DNA of 64,000 bases from Natronococcus occultus SP4 (lineage in GTDB: Archaea > Halobacteriota > Halobacteria > Halobacteriales > Natrialbaceae): NCBI RefSeq assembly GCF_000328685.1, contig NC_019974.1, positions 1,665,001 through 1,729,000 on the forward strand, read 5' to 3'. Position 1 is the first letter of the stretch; each line of letters starts with the position of its first letter. Of the stretch, positions 39,997 through 52,691 are shown piece by piece. The notes beneath the pieces were generated by a model. It was given only the letters and a program-made list of their open reading frames with translations, ran no database searches and was not told where the DNA came from. A program made the position numbers and the translations under genes.

Positions 39997-42195
39997 ATGA
40001 AACTCACCGTCAAGCCGCTCGTTTCGAACCGGTCGGAACGGTCCGTCGCCGCCCTCGAGCGAGAGACGATAGCTGAGCTTGGTATCGAGTCCGGCGAGTA
40101 CGTTTCTCTCGAGGGACCAACGGGCGAATCGGCCGTCGTCGAGGTGACGTCGCGACCGACCGAGGACGTCGACGACCGGACGATCCGTCTCGAGGACGCG
40201 CTCGCGGATCGCCTCGGCGTCGAGGTCGGGGGGACCGTCCGCGCGGAACCGGTCGACGTTCGGTCCGCCGAGCGAGTCGAGGTCGCGCTCCCCGAGGACG
40301 TCTCCTCGAAGGCAGCCCTCGAGTTCGCACAGCGGGACACATTGGTCGGCCGAGTGCTTTCGGACGCGGAGACGGTGACGGTGTCGCTGGCCGCCGAGTC
40401 GGGCGCCGGGAGCCGGAGTGTCCCGATCGAGGTCGTCGACCTCGAGCCGACGCCTCCGGTCGTCGTCGAGGACTGGACGTCGGTCGTGCTCTCGCCGGAG
40501 GCGGCGTCGATCGACGACACGGAGCGCGATCAACCGACGCCTGCCGTGACGTACGACGACGTCGGCGGTCTCGCCGAGGAACTCGACCGGGTGCGGGAGG
40601 TCGTCGAGCTGCCGATGCGGTATCCGGACGTCTTCGATCGGCTCGGGATCGAGCCGCCGAAGGGCGTCTTACTGTACGGTCCGCCGGGAACCGGGAAGAC
40701 GCTCATCGCCCGCGCGATGGCCAACGAGGTCGGGGCACACTTTCAGACGCTTCGGGGACCGGAGATCGTCTCGAAGTACTACGGCGAGAGCGAGGAACGG
40801 CTCCGGGAGGTGTTCGCGGAGGCCGAGGAGAACGCGCCGGCAATCGTCTTCGTCGACGAGATCGACGCGATCGCGCCGAAACGAGAGGACGTCGGCGACG
40901 CCGAGCGTCGGATCGTCGCCCAGCTGTTGTCCCTGCTCGACGGCGGCGACAGCCGGGGCCAGGTCGTCGTGATGGGGACGACGAACCGGGTCGATTCGGT
41001 CGATCCGGCCCTGCGTCGTCCCGGACGGTTCGACCGGGAGATCGAGATCGGCGTGCCGGACGCGGACGAACGGGCGGAGATCCTCGACATCCACGCGGCC
41101 GACGTCTCCCTGAGCGAGGACGTCGACCTCGAGCGCTACGCCGAGCGAACCCACGGGTTCGTCGGGGCGGATCTCGAGAACCTGATCAGGGAGAGCGCGA
41201 TGTGTGCGCTGCGACGGCTGCGCGAGGACTCGCCCGGTGGACGATCCGAGCTCTCGATCGACGGCCCGATCGAGATCGGCGAGCCGGACGTCGAAGCGGC
41301 GCTTCGCGAGATCGAACCCTCGGCGATGCGCGAGGTGTTCGTCGAGGTTCCGGACGCGGGCTGGACGGATATCGGCGGGCTCGAGGACGCGAAACGGACG
41401 CTCCGGGAGGCCATCCAGTGGCCCCTCGAGTACGCCGACGCTTTCGATCGGGTGTCGCTGCGGCCGGCGACGGGCGTCCTGCTGTACGGGCCCCCAGGGA
41501 CCGGGAAGACGTTGCTGGCGCGGGCCGTCGCAAACGAGGCCCAGTCGAACTTCATCTCGATCAAGGGTCCCGAACTCGTCGACAAGTACGTCGGCGAGTC
41601 CGAACGCGGGATCCGGAACGTCTTCAGCAAGGCTCGAGAGAACGCACCGACCGTGCTCGTCTTCGACGAGATCGACGCCATCGCCGGCACTCGCAACGAG
41701 TCGGGCGAGACGGCCGTCGGGGAACGGGTCGTCTCGCAGCTGTTGACCGAACTCGACGGGCTCGAGGACCTCGAGGACGTCGTCGTCCTCGCGACGACGA
41801 ACCGTCCTGACCGGATCGACGACGCGTTACTCCGGGCCGGGCGGTTCGAACGACACGTCCGCGTCGGAGAGCCAGACCGTGGGGCTAGACGGGAGATCTT
41901 CGAGGTCCACCTCCGCGATCGTCCGCTCGCTGACGACGTCGACCTCGAGACGCTCGCGGAACGGACCGAGGGCACAGTCGGCGCCGCCATCGAGGGGATC
42001 TGTCGAACGGCGGCGATGAACGCCGTCCGCGACTACGTCGAGGACGCGCCGAACGCGGGCTCGCCGCCAGATCTCGAGACGCTCGTCCTGACTGCCGAGC
42101 ACTTCGAGCGGGCACTCGAACGGACGGACGGGGAGTCGGCCGACGAGTTCGGTCGGTCGGCGGACGGGTTCGACGCGCTCCTCGACGGCGAGTGA
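39997..42195 (+). CDS. cdc48: CDC48/VAT-type AAA+ ATPase
   Basis: A 732-residue double-ring unfoldase. Residues 1-180 form the N-domain (double-psi barrel plus small domain). Walker A GPPGTGKT of D1 is at 228-235, with Walker B IVFVDEIDAIAPKRED following. D2 has a second GPPGTGKT near 497-504 and VLVFDEIDAIAGTR. The arginine-finger RPGRFDREIEIG segments are present. It unfolds proteins for the proteasome. The start at 39997 (MKLTVKPLV) fits family length; an upstream open frame does not. Haloarchaea carry several paralogues, so this may be a secondary one. Confidence 0.93.
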   Translation: MKLTVKPLVSNRSERSVAALERETIAELGIESGEYVSLEGPTGESAVVEVTSRPTEDVDDRTIRLEDALADRLGVEVGGTVRAEPVDVRSAERVEVALPEDVSSKAALEFAQRDTLVGRVLSDAETVTVSLAAESGAGSRSVPIEVVDLEPTPPVVVEDWTSVVLSPEAASIDDTERDQPTPAVTYDDVGGLAEELDRVREVVELPMRYPDVFDRLGIEPPKGVLLYGPPGTGKTLIARAMANEVGAHFQTLRGPEIVSKYYGESEERLREVFAEAEENAPAIVFVDEIDAIAPKREDVGDAERRIVAQLLSLLDGGDSRGQVVVMGTTNRVDSVDPALRRPGRFDREIEIGVPDADERAEILDIHAADVSLSEDVDLERYAERTHGFVGADLENLIRESAMCALRRLREDSPGGRSELSIDGPIEIGEPDVEAALREIEPSAMREVFVEVPDAGWTDIGGLEDAKRTLREAIQWPLEYADAFDRVSLRPATGVLLYGPPGTGKTLLARAVANEAQSNFISIKGPELVDKYVGESERGIRNVFSKARENAPTVLVFDEIDAIAGTRNESGETAVGERVVSQLLTELDGLEDLEDVVVLATTNRPDRIDDALLRAGRFERHVRVGEPDRGARREIFEVHLRDRPLADDVDLETLAERTEGTVGAAIEGICRTAAMNAVRDYVEDAPNAGSPPDLETLVLTAEHFERALERTDGESADEFGRSADGFDALLDGE

Positions 42196-42250: not shown

Positions 42251-42733
42251 ATGTCACCCAACCTTCCCCACGTCCGGCTCGGCGAGGACGCCGCGGAACG
42301 GGGCGACAGCGAGGCCGACGAGGGTCCCGTCCGAACCGTCGAGTACCTCGACTACGAGGTCCTGAGCGAGCGGGGGTGGGATATCGAGGACGACGACCTC
42401 TTCGAGAAAGCGGCCGAAGCCGACCTCGACGACACCGATCACGGTCGGATCGAGGTCACCGGCCGGCGGTACATCCTCGACGCCGCCGAGGATCAGGGGT
42501 TCGAGTGGCCCTACGAGTGTCGGGCCGCGTCGTGTGCCAACTGTGCCGGGATCGTCTACGAGGGCGACGTCGAGATGGATATGGATCTCATCCTCACCGA
42601 GGAGGAAGTCGAGGAACGACAGATTACTCTCACCTGCCAGTCGATCCCGAAAAGCGACGAGGTAAAACTCGTCTACAACGCGATGTATCTCGACTACCTG
42701 CAGGATCGCGTCATCGGCGTCCGAGAGGTGTAG
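42251..42733 (+). CDS. [2Fe-2S] ferredoxin, plant type
   Basis: A 160-residue halophilic ferredoxin. Cluster ligands: CRAASCANC (C-x4-C-x2-C) and a fourth Cys in LTCQSI. About 60 acidic residues precede the beta-grasp domain, more than in the 128-residue Haloarcula and Halobacterium ferredoxins, but with the same kind of acidic surface. It is an electron carrier for oxidoreductases. The ATG at 42251 is used; upstream TTG/TGT codons are unlikely starts. A CTAAGTAGG box about 25-30 bases before it may be the TATA element. Confidence 0.92.
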
Positions 42734-42768: not shown

Positions 42769-43365
42769 TCAGGACTCGAGGTTCTCGATGGCGTCCTCAA
42801 GTCGCTGGGAGGGCGACTGCTCGGTGACGATCTGTTCTTGCTGGTAGGCGCGGATCGGTTCGGTGTCGATGTCGACGTCGGCGTCGGCCAGCGCGTCCAG
42901 TGCCGTCGCGAGGACGACGGTCTGGAACTCGAGGCGGGATTCGAGGTTGTTGACCTGCTCGAGGGCCCGTTCGGAGAGTTCGGTCAGCGACTGGGAGAAC
43001 TCCGAGAGGTTCGCCTCGGCCTGGTCGAGTCGTCGCTCGCCGAGACTGATCGTCGCGAAGTTCTCGAGTTCGTCGATGTCGTCGGACAACTGCTCGAGGT
43101 CGTCCTCGAGCGTCTCGAGTCGATCATCGACGACGCGCTCGACCTGCTGGTCGATCGTCCCTCCTGCCTCCGCTTCGGTTCCGGGGTTCGACTCGGACGC
43201 GCGCGCTCGCGGACCGCTCGCGCCTTCCGGGCCGCTTTGGGCGTCGCTCTCCTCGATCGGTTCGTCCGCCGGAACGGCGCCGTTTTCGTTCGCACACGTC
43301 AGTACGTGGCTCTTGTACGGGCCCGGTGCCGGATACTCCTCGCCGCAGTGGGCACACTCTGGCAT
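42769..43365 (-). CDS. Zinc-finger and coiled-coil protein, haloarchaeal
   Basis: 198 residues. The N-terminus MPECAHCGEEYPAPGPYKSHVLTC (partly cited: CxxC then HxxxC) is a C2HC zinc finger. Then about 35 residues of acidic linker, and residues 70-170 form a heptad-rich helix (LETLEDDLEQLSDDIDELE, then LSERALEQVNNLESRLE) that should be a coiled coil. It may link DNA or a partner to a multimer; function is unknown. It is convergent with the ferredoxin gene, 35 bases apart. Confidence 0.65.
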   Translation of the reverse strand: MPECAHCGEEYPAPGPYKSHVLTCANENGAVPADEPIEESDAQSGPEGASGPRARASESNPGTEAEAGGTIDQQVERVVDDRLETLEDDLEQLSDDIDELENFATISLGERRLDQAEANLSEFSQSLTELSERALEQVNNLESRLEFQTVVLATALDALADADVDIDTEPIRAYQQEQIVTEQSPSQRLEDAIENLES

Positions 43366-43461: not shown

Positions 43462-43746
43462 TCAGTCCGACCCGTCGGACTGGTCGGTCGCCTGCAGGAT
43501 GAAGGCTCGCTCCGGCGGGGGCGCGGCGTACAGTTCGACGTCGTTAACGAGTCGGTAGTACTTCCGGTTCCCGCGCCGGTAGTGATCGACGAGCCCCGCC
43601 TCCTCGAGGACCGAGAGGTGATGCACCGCCGACTTTCCGTTCATTCCGACAGCTTCGGCGAGTTCGGACACGTACTTCGGCTCCCGAGAGAGCTCCCGGA
43701 TGATCTTCAGCCGTCGAGCGTTTCCCAGCGCCTCGAGCAGCGTCAT
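43462..43746 (-). CDS. ArsR-like winged-helix regulator
   Basis: 94 residues: LLEALGNARRLKIIRELS, EPKYVSELAEAVGMNGKSAVHHLSVLEEAGLV and HYRRGNRKYYRLVND are the helices and wing of an ArsR-type DNA-binding domain (partly cited). There are no cysteines, so it is not a metal sensor of the ArsR/SmtB type. It is divergent from the amphi-Trp gene, 93 bases apart, so it may control that gene and itself. Confidence 0.82.
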   Translation of the reverse strand: MTLLEALGNARRLKIIRELSREPKYVSELAEAVGMNGKSAVHHLSVLEEAGLVDHYRRGNRKYYRLVNDVELYAAPPPERAFILQATDQSDGSD

Positions 43747-43839: not shown

Positions 43840-44142
43840 ATGACGAACAACGTCGAGTTTCCCGACGACGAGCGACCCGACCGCAGGGTCATCACGGATG
43901 GGTTCTTCGAGCAGGAGATCTACCTCTCGCGGACCGAAACGGCGAGTTTCCTCCGGGAGATCGCCGACGCCCTCGAGGACGACGCGTCGCTGACGATCTC
44001 GGGAAGTAGCTGGGAGATCCCCTTCGAGTACCGCGAACCCATCGAGGTCGAGATCGAGTTCTCCGGCCAGCGTACGTCGGAGCTCGAGATCGAACTCGAG
44101 TTCGAGCAGGCCAGAGACGGGAGTGACCTCCGCGTCGAGTGA
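43840..44142 (+). CDS. Amphi-Trp domain protein
   Basis: A 100-residue acidic beta-rich protein. FFEQEIYLSRTETASFLREIADALED and the SSWEIPFEYREPIEVEIEFSG pattern (partly cited) match the amphi-Trp domain, a small module of unknown function. The start at 43840 follows TTTATG at about 43809, a plausible TATA box. The methyltransferase gene follows almost directly. Confidence 0.8.
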   Translation: MTNNVEFPDDERPDRRVITDGFFEQEIYLSRTETASFLREIADALEDDASLTISGSSWEIPFEYREPIEVEIEFSGQRTSELEIELEFEQARDGSDLRVE

Positions 44143-44149
44143 CCGACGC

Positions 44150-44920
44150 GTGATCGGACCGCGATACTACTTCGGGATCTACCACTGGCGGCGGCGGCTC
44201 CGTTCGATCGCGACCGCGGCGGTCGTGATCGTGGCTGCGGCCGTCGCCGGACGCCGAACGCGATCCCGCAGCCGTCGGCTCGTCGCGGCCGCGGTCGGGG
44301 TGGTCGCGGCCGTCCGTATCGGGCGGACGCTCCGCCGACTGGGATCGCCGCCCCCGTGGGCCCTCGAGCGCGCGAAGTACGACGCGCTCGCGAGCCGGCT
44401 CCCGTTCGATCGGGCACAGCGAGTTCTCGACGTCGGCTGCGGGACGGGTCGGTCGCTCGTGGGGCTGGCACCCCACGTTCCCGACGGCGTCGCGGTGCTC
44501 GGCCTCGACGTCTTCGACGACCGCGTCATCCACGGCAACGGACCGCAGCTGGCACGTCGAAACGCCGCCCGCGCCGGACTCGACGCCGAGCCGGTCGCTG
44601 CGGACGCGGCGACGCTCCCGCTCGAGACCGATTCGGTCGACGTCGCGACCGCGTGTCGGGTTCTCCACGATCTGCCGGCCGAGGACGCCGCGGCCGCGCT
44701 CGCCGAGCTCCGGCGGGTCTGTGGTCCCGAAGGGACCGTCGGCGTCCTCGAGTTACCGCTCGTCCCCGACGATGTCGAGGACGATCCGGACCCGGAGTCG
44801 TACTGGTCGGATCGGATCGTCGAGGCCGGGTTCGAGATCGAGGCGCTCGAGCGCCTCGAACTGGCTGGGCGAGCGGAGCCGTACATCGTCGTCGTGGCGC
44901 GGCCGAACACTGATCGCTAA
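44150..44920 (+). CDS. Membrane-anchored SAM-dependent methyltransferase
   Basis: About 256 residues. Residues from about 85 form a class I methyltransferase: VLDVGCGTGRSLVGLA is motif I, LGLDVFDD the next acidic loop, and VDVATACRVLHDLPAEDA motif IV. Before it, two hydrophobic helices (SIATAAVVIVAAAVAG and LVAAAVGVVAAVRIG) predict membrane attachment. I start at GTG 44150, just after the amphi-Trp stop; another GTG, at 44123, would overlap that gene by 20 bases. Substrate unknown, perhaps a lipid or quinone. Confidence 0.75.
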   Translation: MIGPRYYFGIYHWRRRLRSIATAAVVIVAAAVAGRRTRSRSRRLVAAAVGVVAAVRIGRTLRRLGSPPPWALERAKYDALASRLPFDRAQRVLDVGCGTGRSLVGLAPHVPDGVAVLGLDVFDDRVIHGNGPQLARRNAARAGLDAEPVAADAATLPLETDSVDVATACRVLHDLPAEDAAAALAELRRVCGPEGTVGVLELPLVPDDVEDDPDPESYWSDRIVEAGFEIEALERLELAGRAEPYIVVVARPNTDR

Positions 44921-44959: not shown

Positions 44960-46678
44960 CTACTCAGACAGCGAGAAGACCGCCAGACGGGTGTCACGGC
45001 CGCCGGCGCCGCGCCGGAGCCAGCCGCTGCCGCCGACCTGGATCGCGACGTACTGCTTCTCGGTCTCGGGGTCGTACCAGCTCATCGGGCTGCCGGCGAT
45101 CGACGCCTCGCCGAGGTCGTACTCCCAAAGCCGGTCGCCGCTCTCGCCGTCGTAGGCGATGAAGTCGCCGTTCTGGGTGCCGGTGAAGACGACGCCGGTC
45201 TCGGTCGTCACCATGCCGCCCCAGATGTAGGCGTCGCTCTCGATCCAGTCGCGCCAGACCCGCTCGCCCGTTTCGGGGTTGATCGCGACGATGGCGCTGA
45301 TCTTCCCGTTGTACTCGTCGGGGACGGCTTCGGTCTCGTCCTCTAAGATTCCGCCCCAGTACTTCTTGCCTTCCTCGTACTCCTCGAAGCGCCACCAGGC
45401 TTCCTGGGGCGAGTTGTTCATCTTCGTGTACATGAGTCCGGTTTCGGGGTTGTAGGCTGGCGGCTGCCAGTCGTTGCCCCCCATCGCGCCGGGCATGAAC
45501 GGCATCCGGCGTCCCTCGTCGATGTGCGGGATCATCCGGTACATGTTCAGCTGCTGGACGCCGGGCTCGCTGCGCTCGATGAGCTCGCCTGTCTCGGTGT
45601 CCATCGTGTAGAGCCAGGCAGTCTTGCCGGCGGAGACGACGACGTCTTTGGTCGTGTTTCGGTGTTCGATCTCCATGTCCCGGATGAGGACTCGCGGCGC
45701 AGCCGAGTCGTAGTCCCAGACGTCGTGAGCGACTTCCTGGTGAGTCCACAGTCGCTCGCCGGTGTCCATATCGAGCGCGAGCGTTCCGCAGCTGTTTCGG
45801 TTCGGTCCCGGTCGGACGGAGCCGTCGAAGTCCGGCCCGGGGTTGCCGATCGGGAGGTAGAGCCGGCGCTGTTCGACGTCGACCGTCGCGTTCATCCAGT
45901 TGGTTGCACAGGACTGGTTGATGCTGTCGCCGACCCACTCGGTCTCGGGTGAGGTCCAAGTGTGCCACAGCTCGTCGCCGGTTTCGGCGTCCAGCGCCTT
46001 GTGGAACCCGCGAACGCCGTACTCGCCGCCCGCGCTGCCGGTGAAGATCATCCCGTCGTACGCGATCGGCGCCCAGGTCGCCGAGTACCCTTCCTCGTGG
46101 TCCGCCGTCGAGGTGTGCCAGACTTCCTCGCCGGTGTACCGGTCGAGCGCGACGACCCCGGAGTCCAACGTCGTCATAAAGACCTTGTCGCCGTAGGCAG
46201 CGACGCCGCGGTTGTTGTCGTCACAACAGAGAACGACGTCCGAGGGCACGGCATACGTATAGCTCCAGAGGATATCGCCCTCGCGAGCGTCGATGGCCTT
46301 GACGTGGTTCGGCCCGTTGGACTGATACATGATCGGCGGGTCGCCCGGAACGATCAGCGGCGTCCCCTCCATGCTCGAGCCGGCACCGACGTCGAGGATG
46401 TACTCGACCTCGAGGTCGGCGACGTTGTCGGGCGTGATGACGTCGGCGGTCGTACGACGGTGTTGTTCGTAGTTCCCGCCGTAGGTGAGCCAGGCCTCCG
46501 GATTATCGCCGGACTCCTGGATCATCTCGTTGGTGACGTCGAACTCCTCGATCCGATCGACGTCGTGTTGGTGCGTGACCGATTTGTCGGGCGATCCCAG
46601 TACGCGGAACCCCTGGTCAGTCTCTCTAACAACCGTATCCTTTGCGGCCTGTACGGCCCTGTCTTCTTCGAGTGACAT
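44960..46678 (-). CDS. PQQ-type (quinoprotein) alcohol dehydrogenase, no signal peptide
   Basis: A 572-residue eight-bladed propeller with repeated tryptophan-docking motifs (for example GEEVWHT, GDELWHT, GERLWTH, GDRLWEY). The vicinal cysteines that form the PQQ-sandwiching disulfide ring are C151-C152. The metal and active-site residues are E219 (GGEYGVRG), N279 (GNPGPDFDG) and D322. D324 two residues on (WDYD) is the extra aspartate associated with lanthanide-using XoxF/ExaF enzymes. There is no haem domain. There is also no signal peptide, and only six bases separate it from the upstream gene, so no hidden one. Family members oxidise alcohols or similar substrates, normally outside the membrane; here it should stay in the cytoplasm unless exported by a partner. 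Confidence 0.85.
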   Translation of the reverse strand: MSLEEDRAVQAAKDTVVRETDQGFRVLGSPDKSVTHQHDVDRIEEFDVTNEMIQESGDNPEAWLTYGGNYEQHRRTTADVITPDNVADLEVEYILDVGAGSSMEGTPLIVPGDPPIMYQSNGPNHVKAIDAREGDILWSYTYAVPSDVVLCCDDNNRGVAAYGDKVFMTTLDSGVVALDRYTGEEVWHTSTADHEEGYSATWAPIAYDGMIFTGSAGGEYGVRGFHKALDAETGDELWHTWTSPETEWVGDSINQSCATNWMNATVDVEQRRLYLPIGNPGPDFDGSVRPGPNRNSCGTLALDMDTGERLWTHQEVAHDVWDYDSAAPRVLIRDMEIEHRNTTKDVVVSAGKTAWLYTMDTETGELIERSEPGVQQLNMYRMIPHIDEGRRMPFMPGAMGGNDWQPPAYNPETGLMYTKMNNSPQEAWWRFEEYEEGKKYWGGILEDETEAVPDEYNGKISAIVAINPETGERVWRDWIESDAYIWGGMVTTETGVVFTGTQNGDFIAYDGESGDRLWEYDLGEASIAGSPMSWYDPETEKQYVAIQVGGSGWLRRGAGGRDTRLAVFSLSE

Positions 46679-47695: not shown

Positions 47696-47968
47696 ACGGG
47701 TGGAATTATGTGTCTTGGACTGTCGCTGTCGTCTTTTCGATAACACAGCTGGTTTCGATACCGTTACCCTCCTCGCTCCTGTCCCGTGGAACCCTTCGGC
47801 CATGATAGAAATCCGCCATTACCGGGCCGGCGCCAGCGTTCGAACGGGAGCCGGGACAGATGCGGACTCGGGATCGCTACCGATGCGGTCAGCATCTACT
47901 TAAACGTTAACCCAAATGATTTATTAGCTCCTTCGTCGACAGTCGGATACGGTAAGAGTGTGAATAAC

Positions 47969-49036
47969 ATGCAAAATACGCGACGCGGCGTCCTCGCGCT
48001 CGGCGGCGGGCTCGTCCTCTCAGGGTGTGCCGGCCGGCTCGGCGGGAGCGAGGACGGGGGGACGTCCTCGAACGACGGGGTCGACGTGGAGTCGGTCTCG
48101 CTGTTGTTGAACTGGAACCTGGGCGGTCTCCACGCGCCCTACGTCGCCGCCCGGGAGGAAGGGTTCTACGCGGACGAGGGGTTCGCCGACATCGAGATCG
48201 AGAGCGGGGACGGTTCGGACTTCGCGGCGAACCAGGCCGGGCTCGGCAACACGGAGTTCGCCGTCTCCAGCGGCGACCAGATCCTGACGGTCAACAGCAA
48301 CGAGCTGTCGCCCCGCGCGGTCGGGATCGTCATGCAGCGGAACCCGAACGTCGTCTTCGCCGACCGCGAGGAGTTCGGGGAGCTCACCGATCCGGAACAG
48401 CTCGAGGACGTGACGGTCGGGAGCGGTCCGGGAATGGTTCGAACGATGACAGAGGCGTATCTCGATCACCACGGGCTCCTCGACACCGTCGAGTACGTCG
48501 ATGCCGGCTTCGACACCGTCCAGCAGCTGCTGGCCGGCGAAATCGACGTCGCCGGCGGCGTCTTCAGCGACGTCGTCGACGCGCGCCACCAGGGCAGGGA
48601 GATCGACGTCCTCGAGACCGACGAGGCCGTCGCCTCCTACGGCCACCTGATCGCGACCGACGAGTCGTTCGCCGAGGACCACCCCGAGACCGTCGAGGCG
48701 TTCCTCCGGGCGACCGCCAGAGGAGCCGTCTGGGCGGCTCGAAACCCCGACGCGGCGATCGATCACCTCGTCGACGTCCAGCCCGAACTCGCTGAGACCC
48801 GGGAGAACCAGTACGACAAGTGGGAACAGATGTACACCGAGTACATGCTCTCGGAGACGGTCGAGCGCGAGGGATGGGGAGCGAGCGCACCCGACCCCTG
48901 GCGGGAAACCCACGAGGTGCTGGCCGACGGCGACGTCCTCGAGAACGAGGTCGATCCGGACGCCGTCTGGACCAACGACTACCTCGACGCCGAGGACGAA
49001 TACGTCTCGGCATTCGCCGATCGAATCGATGGCTAA
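47969..49036 (+). CDS. NMT1/SsuA-type ABC substrate-binding lipoprotein
   Basis: A 355-residue binding protein. A Tat signal (NTRRGVLALGGG, RR at 5-6) leads to lipobox Cys20 (LSGCAG). The mature domain belongs to the NMT1/THI5-SsuA family: LLLNWNLGGLHAPYVAAREEGFYADEG (partly cited) and SVSSGDQIL-like segments, here AVSSGDQIL. These proteins carry thiamine precursors, sulfonates, nitrate or similar small molecules; I cannot choose. The ATG at 47969 begins the Tat signal. The permease follows 39 bases later. Confidence 0.88.
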   Translation: MQNTRRGVLALGGGLVLSGCAGRLGGSEDGGTSSNDGVDVESVSLLLNWNLGGLHAPYVAAREEGFYADEGFADIEIESGDGSDFAANQAGLGNTEFAVSSGDQILTVNSNELSPRAVGIVMQRNPNVVFADREEFGELTDPEQLEDVTVGSGPGMVRTMTEAYLDHHGLLDTVEYVDAGFDTVQQLLAGEIDVAGGVFSDVVDARHQGREIDVLETDEAVASYGHLIATDESFAEDHPETVEAFLRATARGAVWAARNPDAAIDHLVDVQPELAETRENQYDKWEQMYTEYMLSETVEREGWGASAPDPWRETHEVLADGDVLENEVDPDAVWTNDYLDAEDEYVSAFADRIDG

Positions 49037-49075: not shown

Positions 49076-49906
49076 ATGATCGACGGACGAACCGAGCGAC
49101 GCGACGCTCGTCGGCTCGAGGACGTCCCGGAGCGCCGAGGTGGACTCGCAGCCGGACGGCGACTCGCCCGGAAAGCGGGTGCGCGGCTCCTCCCACCGGC
49201 GGTCGTCCTCGCGGCGCTGCTCGCCGCGTGGCACGTGGTCGTCGTCCACTACGACGTGCCTGCAGTCGTGCTCCCGTCTCCAATCGAGGTCGGAGCGACG
49301 CTCGCCGAGACGTATCCGACGCTGCTTTCCGACGCCGCCGTCACGGCGGCGACCGCCGGGATCGGGCTGTTCGCGGGTACCGTCGTCGGCGCCGGACTCG
49401 CCTTCGCGATGCTCGGCTCGCGGCGGGCCGCGAGTACGCTCCTGCCGTACGTCGTCGCGCTCCGGATCGCGCCGGTGATCGCGATCGCGCCGCTGCTGTT
49501 TCTCTGGTTCGGCCGCGGGATCCCCGCCCGCTCGCTGGTTGTCACGACGCTGACGGTGTTCCCGATCACGATCGCGACCCTCGACGGCCTCCGTGGCACT
49601 CCCGAGTCGTACCTCGATCTGGCCCGGACCGTCGACGCCTCCCCGACCGCGGCGTTCGTCCGCGTTCGGGTTCCCGCAGCCGCACCGAGCGTTTTCGCTG
49701 GGCTCAAGATCGCCGCGACGCTTTCGGTCATCGGCGCGATCGTCGCCGAGTTCGTTACGCTCAACGCCGGACTGGGCTACCGGGTGTTCGAGACGGCGGC
49801 CTATCTCCGGACGGCCGAGACGTACGCCGCCCTCGTCGTCCTCTCGACGCTCGGTATCGCCTTCTACCTCGTCCCGGTCGGCCTCGAGCGCGCGCTCTGG
49901 CACTGA
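49076..49906 (+). CDS. SsuC/ThiX-type ABC permease 1
   Basis: A 276-residue permease of the binding-protein-dependent class with six helices; about 40 hydrophilic residues precede the first. The EAA coupling loop reads YLDLARTVDASPTAAFVRVRVPAA (partly cited), and SVFAGLKIAATLSVIGAIVAEF follows as in SsuC/TauC. It is convergent with permease 2; the two stops are one base apart. Confidence 0.88.
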   Translation: MIDGRTERRDARRLEDVPERRGGLAAGRRLARKAGARLLPPAVVLAALLAAWHVVVVHYDVPAVVLPSPIEVGATLAETYPTLLSDAAVTAATAGIGLFAGTVVGAGLAFAMLGSRRAASTLLPYVVALRIAPVIAIAPLLFLWFGRGIPARSLVVTTLTVFPITIATLDGLRGTPESYLDLARTVDASPTAAFVRVRVPAAAPSVFAGLKIAATLSVIGAIVAEFVTLNAGLGYRVFETAAYLRTAETYAALVVLSTLGIAFYLVPVGLERALWH

Positions 49907-49907
49907 T

Positions 49908-50679
49908 TCAGGCGACGTCCTCGAGCCCGAGGCGGGCGTGGACACGCCGCTGGACGAGGACGACCAGCCCGTACAGCGCCAGCCCGACGACCAGCAGAAC
50001 GGCGAGTGCCGCGAGCATGACGTCGGGCCGAACGTTCTCGGATCCCATTAAGATTAGAAACCCCAGACCGCTGTCGGCGACGACCCACTCCGCGACGACG
50101 GCGCCGACGACCGCGAGCGTGACCGACTGTTTCAGCCCGGCGAAGACGTCGGGAATCGCGTAGGGGACGTCGACGTACACCAGCCGCGCTATCGGGCCGG
50201 CTCGAACCGACCGCAGCAGGTCGTGGTGGGTCGACGGCGTGCGATCGAGCCCGGCGGCGGTGTTCAACACGAGCGGGAAGAACGTGATGAGCGCGACGAA
50301 GACGATCGCTGTCGCCGTTCCGGTCCCCAGGTAGATGAGCAACAGCGGCGCGATCGCGAGCTTCGGCAGGACCCGGACGGTCACGAGGTAGGGGTAGACG
50401 GCTCGCCGGAACCAGGGGACGGAGGCGACGAAGACCGCGAGGACGATCCCCGCGGCGATCCCGATCGCGCCGCCGTAGACGACCTTCTCGAGAGTGTGGA
50501 GGGCGTTGACCAGATACAGCTCCGGGTTCCCCGCCAGCCGGGCGAGGACGGCGTCCGGCGTCGGGAGGAGAAACGACGGGATCTCGGCGAGGACGGCGAG
50601 CCCCCACCAGAGCGCGACGCCGACACAGAGCGCGGCCGCCGGGTAGGCGACGTCTCCGCCCGCGAGCCGGAGGGTGCGT

Positions 50680-50687
<8 letters not shown>
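49908..50687 (-). CDS. SsuC/ThiX-type ABC permease 2
   Basis: A 259-residue permease of the same class as its convergent neighbour but clearly different in sequence. Coupling loop: HHDLLRSVRAGPIARLVYVDVPYAIPDVFAGLK (partly cited), followed by AVVGAVVAEWVVADSGLGF. The ATG at 50687 overlaps the ATPase gene by 8 bases, so the two are co-translated. Confidence 0.88.
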
Positions 50688-51419
<732 letters not shown>

Positions 51420-51423
<4 letters not shown>

Positions 51424-52691
51424 GGGTCGGTCGCGAGCAACTCACCCTGTTCGAGCGCCGTCCGCAGCCGGTTCCAGGTTTGCTCGCGCTGCCAGCCCCA
51501 GCCCCGTTCGCGGCTATCGTCGCTATGGCCGAACTCCTCGACCGCTCGTTCGAACGTCTCCCGGACGCGATCGGGCTCGTCGTCCCCTCGGTCGGCGATC
51601 CGTTCCGCGGCTCGATCGGCGTCGTCAGTCGCCTCGATCCATCCGCCGACGGTGCCCGCCAGAAACGACGCGAGCGCCGACCGTCGCTCCCGTAACGCCG
51701 ACTCCCGGGCGACGATCGTCGGGCCGTAGATCGGGAAATGGTCGGTGGGAAACAGCGTATCGACGGTCTCACCCTGTCGCTCGAGCTGTCGCGGATCGGT
51801 GATCGACCCGGTGACGACGTCGGCCTCGCCGGACAAAAGCGCCGCCCGCTCCTCACCGGCCGTCGCCGTGATCTCCAGGTCATCCCCGAGGGCGGCCTGG
51901 GAGACGAACAGGCGACCGAGGACGCCCGTTTCGGAACGGGCGGGCATCCCGATCCGTCGCCCCCGGAGCTGGTCGACGCTGCGAAGCTCCGTCCCGAAGG
52001 CCTCGCGGGTGGAGTACAACACCGCCATCGCGCGCTGGTAGAGGACTGCGATCGGAACGACGGGAACCCCCGCCGCCCTGGCCCGGAGCACGGTCGCGGC
52101 CCCGGCGACCCCGACGTCGGCGTCCCCGGCGTCGACCGCGTCGACGGCGCGTCGGGACCCCGCGCGGTGGTCGAGCTCGACCTCGATCCCGTACTCGTCG
52201 TACCAGCCCGTCTCGACGGCCGCGTAGAAGGGAACGTGGAGCCCGTTCGGGTGCCAGTTCAACGCGACCGCGAGCTCCGACCCGGATCGTTCGTCTCCCG
52301 TCGCGGAGTCGGTATCCGAGCAGCGCCCGAAGATCGCCTCCGCTCGCTCGAGCAACGTCTCCGCGTGGCAGTCGTAGACGCGACGACGACTCGTGTCGAG
52401 GTCCGTCGCCGGCGTCCACGCCGACGGAGGCCGTCCCGTCGCGTCGGTGTCGACGGTGGAGCGTTCGACCAGCTCGTCGTCTTCGAGCCGGGCGACCGCG
52501 TCGCTGATCGGCGATCGACTCAGCTCGGTTCCGACCTGCAGCTGGATCGTTCTCGCGGGATCGTCCTCACGCTCGGCCCGCAACAGCAGGTACGCGAGGA
52601 CTCGCGCGGGCGTCCGCCCCAGCCCGACGGCGAGGTCGTCGACGACTGCTTCGTCCTCGTCGTCGAGCACCCAGAACGTTCGCGAGCGCAT
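51420..52691 (-). CDS. Fused helix-turn-helix and NMT1/SsuA-like binding-protein regulator
   Basis: 423 residues. Residues 1-95 form a winged helix (VVDDLAVGLGRTPARVLAYLL, then RSPISDAVARLEDDELV). Then a linker and, from about 140, a solute-binding domain starting LNWHPNGLHVPFYAAVETGWYDEYG (partly cited). This is the same motif as in the cluster's lipoprotein (LNWNLGGLHAPYVAAREEGFY). No signal peptide, so it is cytoplasmic. The simplest reading is a one-component regulator that senses the imported ligand with a copy of its carrier. First gene of the leftward operon regulator-ATPase-permease. Confidence 0.82.

Follow-up and report, generated by a model that had tools for sequence, protein, structure and literature searches.

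The quinoproteins of the class to which the enzyme described here (P1) is related are known as extracytoplasmic enzymes. P1 is a PQQ-type alcohol-dehydrogenase-like catalytic subunit of 572 amino acids with a DYD metal motif and without a signal peptide, encoded at 44960..46678 on the minus strand of the 64-kb stretch of Natronococcus occultus SP4 DNA that was analysed (the window). It shares with the lanthanide-dependent PQQ alcohol dehydrogenases PedH/ExaF and XoxF the fold, the catalytic Asp, the Glu and Asn metal ligands, the extra Asp and the vicinal cysteines, but it is only about 27% identical to them, has no signal peptide and comes with an obligate partner, P2, while its host, unlike theirs, is without PQQ synthesis and shows no linked cytochrome. 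The thaumarchaeal (HMT) PQQ dehydrogenases are also archaeal and PQQ-type, and some have DYD, but 15 of 21 carry signal peptides and none has the Cys-Cys motif (PMC7300363). P2 (46685..47587, minus strand) is a helical protein of 300 amino acids whose N-terminus reads as a decayed Tat signal. The pair resembles the Burkholderia FAD glucose dehydrogenase gamma-alpha complex, in which the small subunit is a Tat hitchhiker escort that is encoded with, and thought to export, the catalytic subunit (PMC6719666). However, the Burkholderia catalytic subunit is an FAD/GMC enzyme whereas P1 is a PQQ propeller, and P2, for which hhalign detects no homology to Gluconate_2-dh3 (probability <4%), has lost its signal in the window's lineage. 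E. coli PaoABC is described as a ternary Tat hitchhiker in which several subunits are co-exported on one Tat signal, and as an aldehyde oxidoreductase, of another family than P1 (PMC4273604). No description of the P2-P1 family was found in the literature searched.

By sequence and fold similarity P1 falls within the PQQ-dependent alcohol dehydrogenase family (TIGR03075/PF01011), whose PQQ ligands, metal ligands and catalytic Asp are present. It matches PF01011 with 190 bits (E=1e-55, cut-off 26.7) and TIGR03075 with 368 bits, which is under the cut-off of 480; its top structural match is the lanthanide-dependent PedH (6zcv, Foldseek E=5e-36), and its AF2 model has a pLDDT of 62. C151, C152, E219, N279, D322 and D324 are all where the sequence-only reading had placed them, and in a HMMER alignment to Methylacidiphilum XoxF (4MAE) they correspond to C104/C105, E172, N256, D299 and D301. 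XoxF residues E55, R110, T154 and W238 are matched by E104, R157, T201 and W261, while S169 and R326 have become A216 and K352. The alignment also bears out D324 as the extra Asp two residues past the catalytic Asp, which had been taken to indicate a lanthanide-type site, and the claimed lack of a haem domain agrees with the absence of CxxCH from the sequence. The catalytic Asp, metal ligands and stacking Trp are invariant in the close family, and dN/dS values of 0.05-0.15 against orthologs show purifying selection on P1. Some of the haloarchaeal members aligned lack E219 or the vicinal cysteines; D324 is invariant in all of the members, and all have DYD save one, which has DWD. This invariance and the published practice of treating DxD as a lanthanide marker (PMC11996626) argue against Ca2+ as the metal of P1, a reading in which DYD is inherited and not diagnostic here, but as the sequence cannot tell the metal, Ca2+ is given a chance only somewhat short of even. 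A lanthanide-type site is present in the sequence, and because the active-site residues are identical to those of the Tat-bearing sister clade, P1 would probably oxidise alcohols with the help of PQQ and a metal, either divalent or a lanthanide.

The sequence-only reading had asked where the PQQ comes from, and a profile search of this genome for the biosynthesis genes returns none of PqqB, PqqC, PqqD and PqqE above cut-off; PqqC and PqqD give no match and PqqB and PqqE weak ones, and the PqqE model also matches in 14 of 14 control genomes. A search of ten haloarchaeal genomes that bear P1, run with a bacterial positive control, finds PqqC in none of them. HMT genomes encode PQQ synthase (PMC7300363), whereas PqqC is below its cut-off in all 292 haloarchaeal genomes. 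PQQ, if used, must therefore be imported, or else the cofactor is something else. In the latter case P1 would be an 'empty' quinoprotein which keeps the fold but leaves PQQ unused, with another cofactor or a structural or binding role, and in favour of this are the missing biosynthesis genes, the exchanges of S169 to A and R326 to K, and the second-best NCBIfam match of P1, TIGR04528 (acido-empty-quinoprotein group A; 251 bits, below the cut-off of 650). It is nevertheless doubtful, given the invariant catalytic Asp, metal ligands and stacking Trp of the close family and the many bacteria that rely on imported PQQ and do not produce it themselves (PMC12124388).

The preferred reading is that PQQ would not be made by the cell but imported, perhaps via the linked NMT1-type ABC transporter. 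Divergent from P2 is the gene of an NMT1/THI5-type substrate-binding lipoprotein (47786..49036, plus strand), which is followed by ABC permease 1 (49076..49906, plus), ABC permease 2 (49908..50687, minus), which aligns with permease 1 in other loci, and an ABC ATPase (50680..51423, minus). The next product combines an NMT1 ligand-binding domain with an HTH-looking N-terminal part (51420..52691, minus) and is probably a one-component ligand-sensing regulator of the adjacent transporter. Of the 292 genomes, 35 encode the NMT1-type binding protein, and P1 is present in 33 of these, mostly nearby (Fisher p=1e-28, without correction for relatedness); 17 P1 genomes are without the binding protein. 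The transporter is a candidate PQQ importer and could equally import the substrate.

P1 relatives are found in 50 of the 292 haloarchaeal genomes searched, with at most four copies each, and close orthologs are present in Natronococcus, Natronolimnohabitans, Natribaculum, Halorubrum, Halalkalicoccus and MAGs. In one locus a second, 57%-identical P1 paralog is located upstream of the P2-P1 pair (L010:3-824). P2 is found in 51 of the 292 genomes, including all 50 that bear P1; the extra genome, without P1, has a 57-residue fragment only (G208:C1:1281450-1281620), possibly a remnant of a P2-P1 pair. All haloarchaeal loci read but one have P2 directly 5' of P1, usually with a gap of -4 to +26 nt, and in the window the gap is 6 nt, as had been noted. 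The exception, L012:2934-4643 from a MAG, is the only P1 locus without a detectable P2 and possibly represents an assembly or loss event. P2 is an obligate partner of P1, and from the gene order we infer that the two form a complex. P2 is predicted to be all-helical (model pLDDT 66); Foldseek with this model gives no significant match (best E=0.15), no Pfam family matches and no sequence relative was found in the PDB. A role for P2 as a Gluconate_2-dh3 escort subunit (PF13618) was considered and rejected, with hhalign probabilities of 0.07-3.6% and no Pfam match.

None of the haloarchaeal P1 proteins read (about 60 genes) has an N-terminal signal of its own, such as the signal peptide of periplasmic quinoproteins, while alphaproteobacterial relatives carry their own N-terminal hydrophobic signals. 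In the window P1 lacks a hydrophobic N-terminal stretch, in keeping with the sequence-only reading, and its first ~47 residues are hydrophilic and conserved among close orthologs. The start is not miscalled either, since an in-frame stop two codons 5' of the ATG excludes a hidden signal, and a stop 13 codons upstream of the P2 start does the same for P2. Extracytoplasmic features are found on signal-less P1 proteins of the Tat-bearing group. Five paralogs (L042, L043, L044, L047 and L048) have Thr-rich, PGF-CTERM-like tails, that of L044 scoring above the PF18204 cut-off, which suggests archaeosortase-type surface anchoring, and two signal-less P1-type enzymes that are preceded by a Tat-bearing P2 (L051:4729-6828 and L053:4752-6842) have a fused N-terminal halocyanin-like copper domain (PF00127 above cut-off). 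The signal itself is located on P2: 22 P2 proteins from paralogous operons, each paired with a signal-less enzyme, start with an RRxFLK-type Tat signal and a hydrophobic stretch, for example DRRTFLKALGVGGAVAAG, and these N-termini align with that of the window's P2, ITDEAQRQLARTFDVEQV. The homologous stretch of the window clade, EAQRQLARTFDVEQVVDGD, is without RR and without a hydrophobic segment, and several Tat-less P2 relatives keep a relic RR. The Tat calls are based on motif and hydrophobicity, and of 33 P2 sequences, 14 give a weak match to the Pfam TAT_signal model at a permissive E. As the Tat signal is on P2, none is on P1 and some P1 proteins have extracytoplasmic hallmarks, the simplest reading is hitchhiker export, with folded P1 carried out by Tat-bearing P2, and in most of the sampled outer branches P1 would travel folded and cofactor-loaded. 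The arrangement of a Tat-signalled partner next to a signal-less enzyme is thus seen in these 22 relatives and not in the window's lineage.

In a tree rooted on bacteria, Tat-bearing P2 is basal and there are two Tat losses. The first is on the stem to the window's lineage (bootstrap/SH-aLRT 97/96), where the window clade and the Tat-bearing L065/L068/L069 clade are united with 100/100 support, and the second is in the L041/L046/L054/L056 clade (100/100); a single origin of all Tat-less members is rejected (AU p=2.3e-8). How many changes occurred is more certain than their direction, a loss and not a gain, because the root branch is long and bacterial; the relic RR motifs help to support that direction. 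One side branch within the window's lineage (L062, L066, L070-L072, L079) encodes a Tat-signalled halocyanin directly downstream of P1, and the Tat signal may here have moved to this third subunit. The second loss clade has the same gene directly downstream of P1 in L046, L054 and L056, and Tat-signalled halocyanin genes further off in L041. For the branch to which the window itself belongs, the loci read revealed no halocyanin, a halocyanin query returned nothing in the 64-kb window, and the P2-P1 operon and cluster contain no Tat-signalled gene.

A [2Fe-2S] haloarchaeal ferredoxin (42251..42733, plus strand; Frdxn_Halo 203 bits, cut-off 150) is a conserved member of the cluster only within the window's own branch. 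Apart from the window itself, 19 loci of this branch have it near P1; it is not found in L012, L015 and L064, while several other loci are too short to judge. A CDC48-like two-domain AAA ATPase (39997..42195, plus) usually accompanies it and is conserved in the cluster, as are a zinc-finger/coiled-coil-like protein (42769..43365, minus) and an ArsR-type HTH regulator (43462..43746, minus). Between these and P1 are an amphi-Trp domain protein (43840..44142, plus), whose orthologs match TIGR04354 above cut-off, and a methyltransferase with an N-terminal hydrophobic segment (44123..44920, plus), which is convergent with P1 and conserved beside it. Aldehyde ferredoxin oxidoreductase (AOR) is encoded near P2-P1 in L007, L008, L009, L013, L014, L075 and L080 and in the side-branch loci L062 and L071, directly upstream of P2 in L007 and L062; the locus counts for AOR, as for halocyanin and ferredoxin, reflect one or few evolutionary events and are not independent. 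Halocyanin is the likely acceptor in the exporting branches, and in the window's lineage the acceptor would no longer be an obvious cupredoxin. The ferredoxin is a candidate redox partner of P1. The potential of PQQH2 is about +0.09 V and that of haloarchaeal ferredoxin about -0.35 V, which implies that reduction would not be easy and that the ferredoxin may work with AOR instead of P1; its role as a simple electron acceptor was set back to that of a candidate for this reason. AOR and the ferredoxin may together handle the product.

The sequence-only reading had assigned P1 to the cytosol, and this is supported, although not by the absence of a signal alone, since no haloarchaeal P1 has one; it is likely, for the window's lineage only, because the Tat signal of P2 has decayed there. 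Secretion by a partner, which had been named as the finding that would overturn the assignment, is indicated in sister lineages, where P2 is Tat-signalled, and rejected in the window's lineage, where it is not. Relocation of P1 to the cytosol is probably the best reading of these N-termini, though the vicinal cysteines, which usually form a disulfide and are unusual in the reducing cytosol, count against it. That P1-P2 of the window's lineage is still exported, via a Tat-signalled protein encoded elsewhere or an unrecognised route, is improbable: the propeller fold and vicinal cysteines are retained and the halocyanins of the two other Tat-less clades imply that the signal can sit on another subunit, but the operon and cluster have no Tat-signalled gene, a halocyanin query returns nothing in the window, and a cytosol-type ferredoxin is conserved in its place.

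It is proposed, with a probability of roughly 70%, that P2 and P1 are the two subunits of a haloarchaea-specific PQQ-type dehydrogenase, P1 being its catalytic beta-propeller, and that P1 would be exported as a hitchhiker in relatives, whereas in the window's lineage the decay of the Tat signal on P2 and the lack of a Tat-signalled operon partner would keep the P2-P1 complex in the cytosol. A more specific version, in which a PQQ-dependent and possibly lanthanide-dependent dehydrogenase relocated to the cytosol, exchanged a halocyanin for a ferredoxin/AOR context and is served by a dedicated NMT1-type ABC importer of PQQ, is tentative and rather unlikely to hold in every part. The family would offer a natural series, with the Tat signal on the escort, on the halocyanin or absent, in which it may be studied how the loss of one short signal shifts the compartment of a redox complex. 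Tat hitchhiker export would gain a PQQ-type example, and the family raises a testable idea of how archaea that do not produce PQQ may obtain it.
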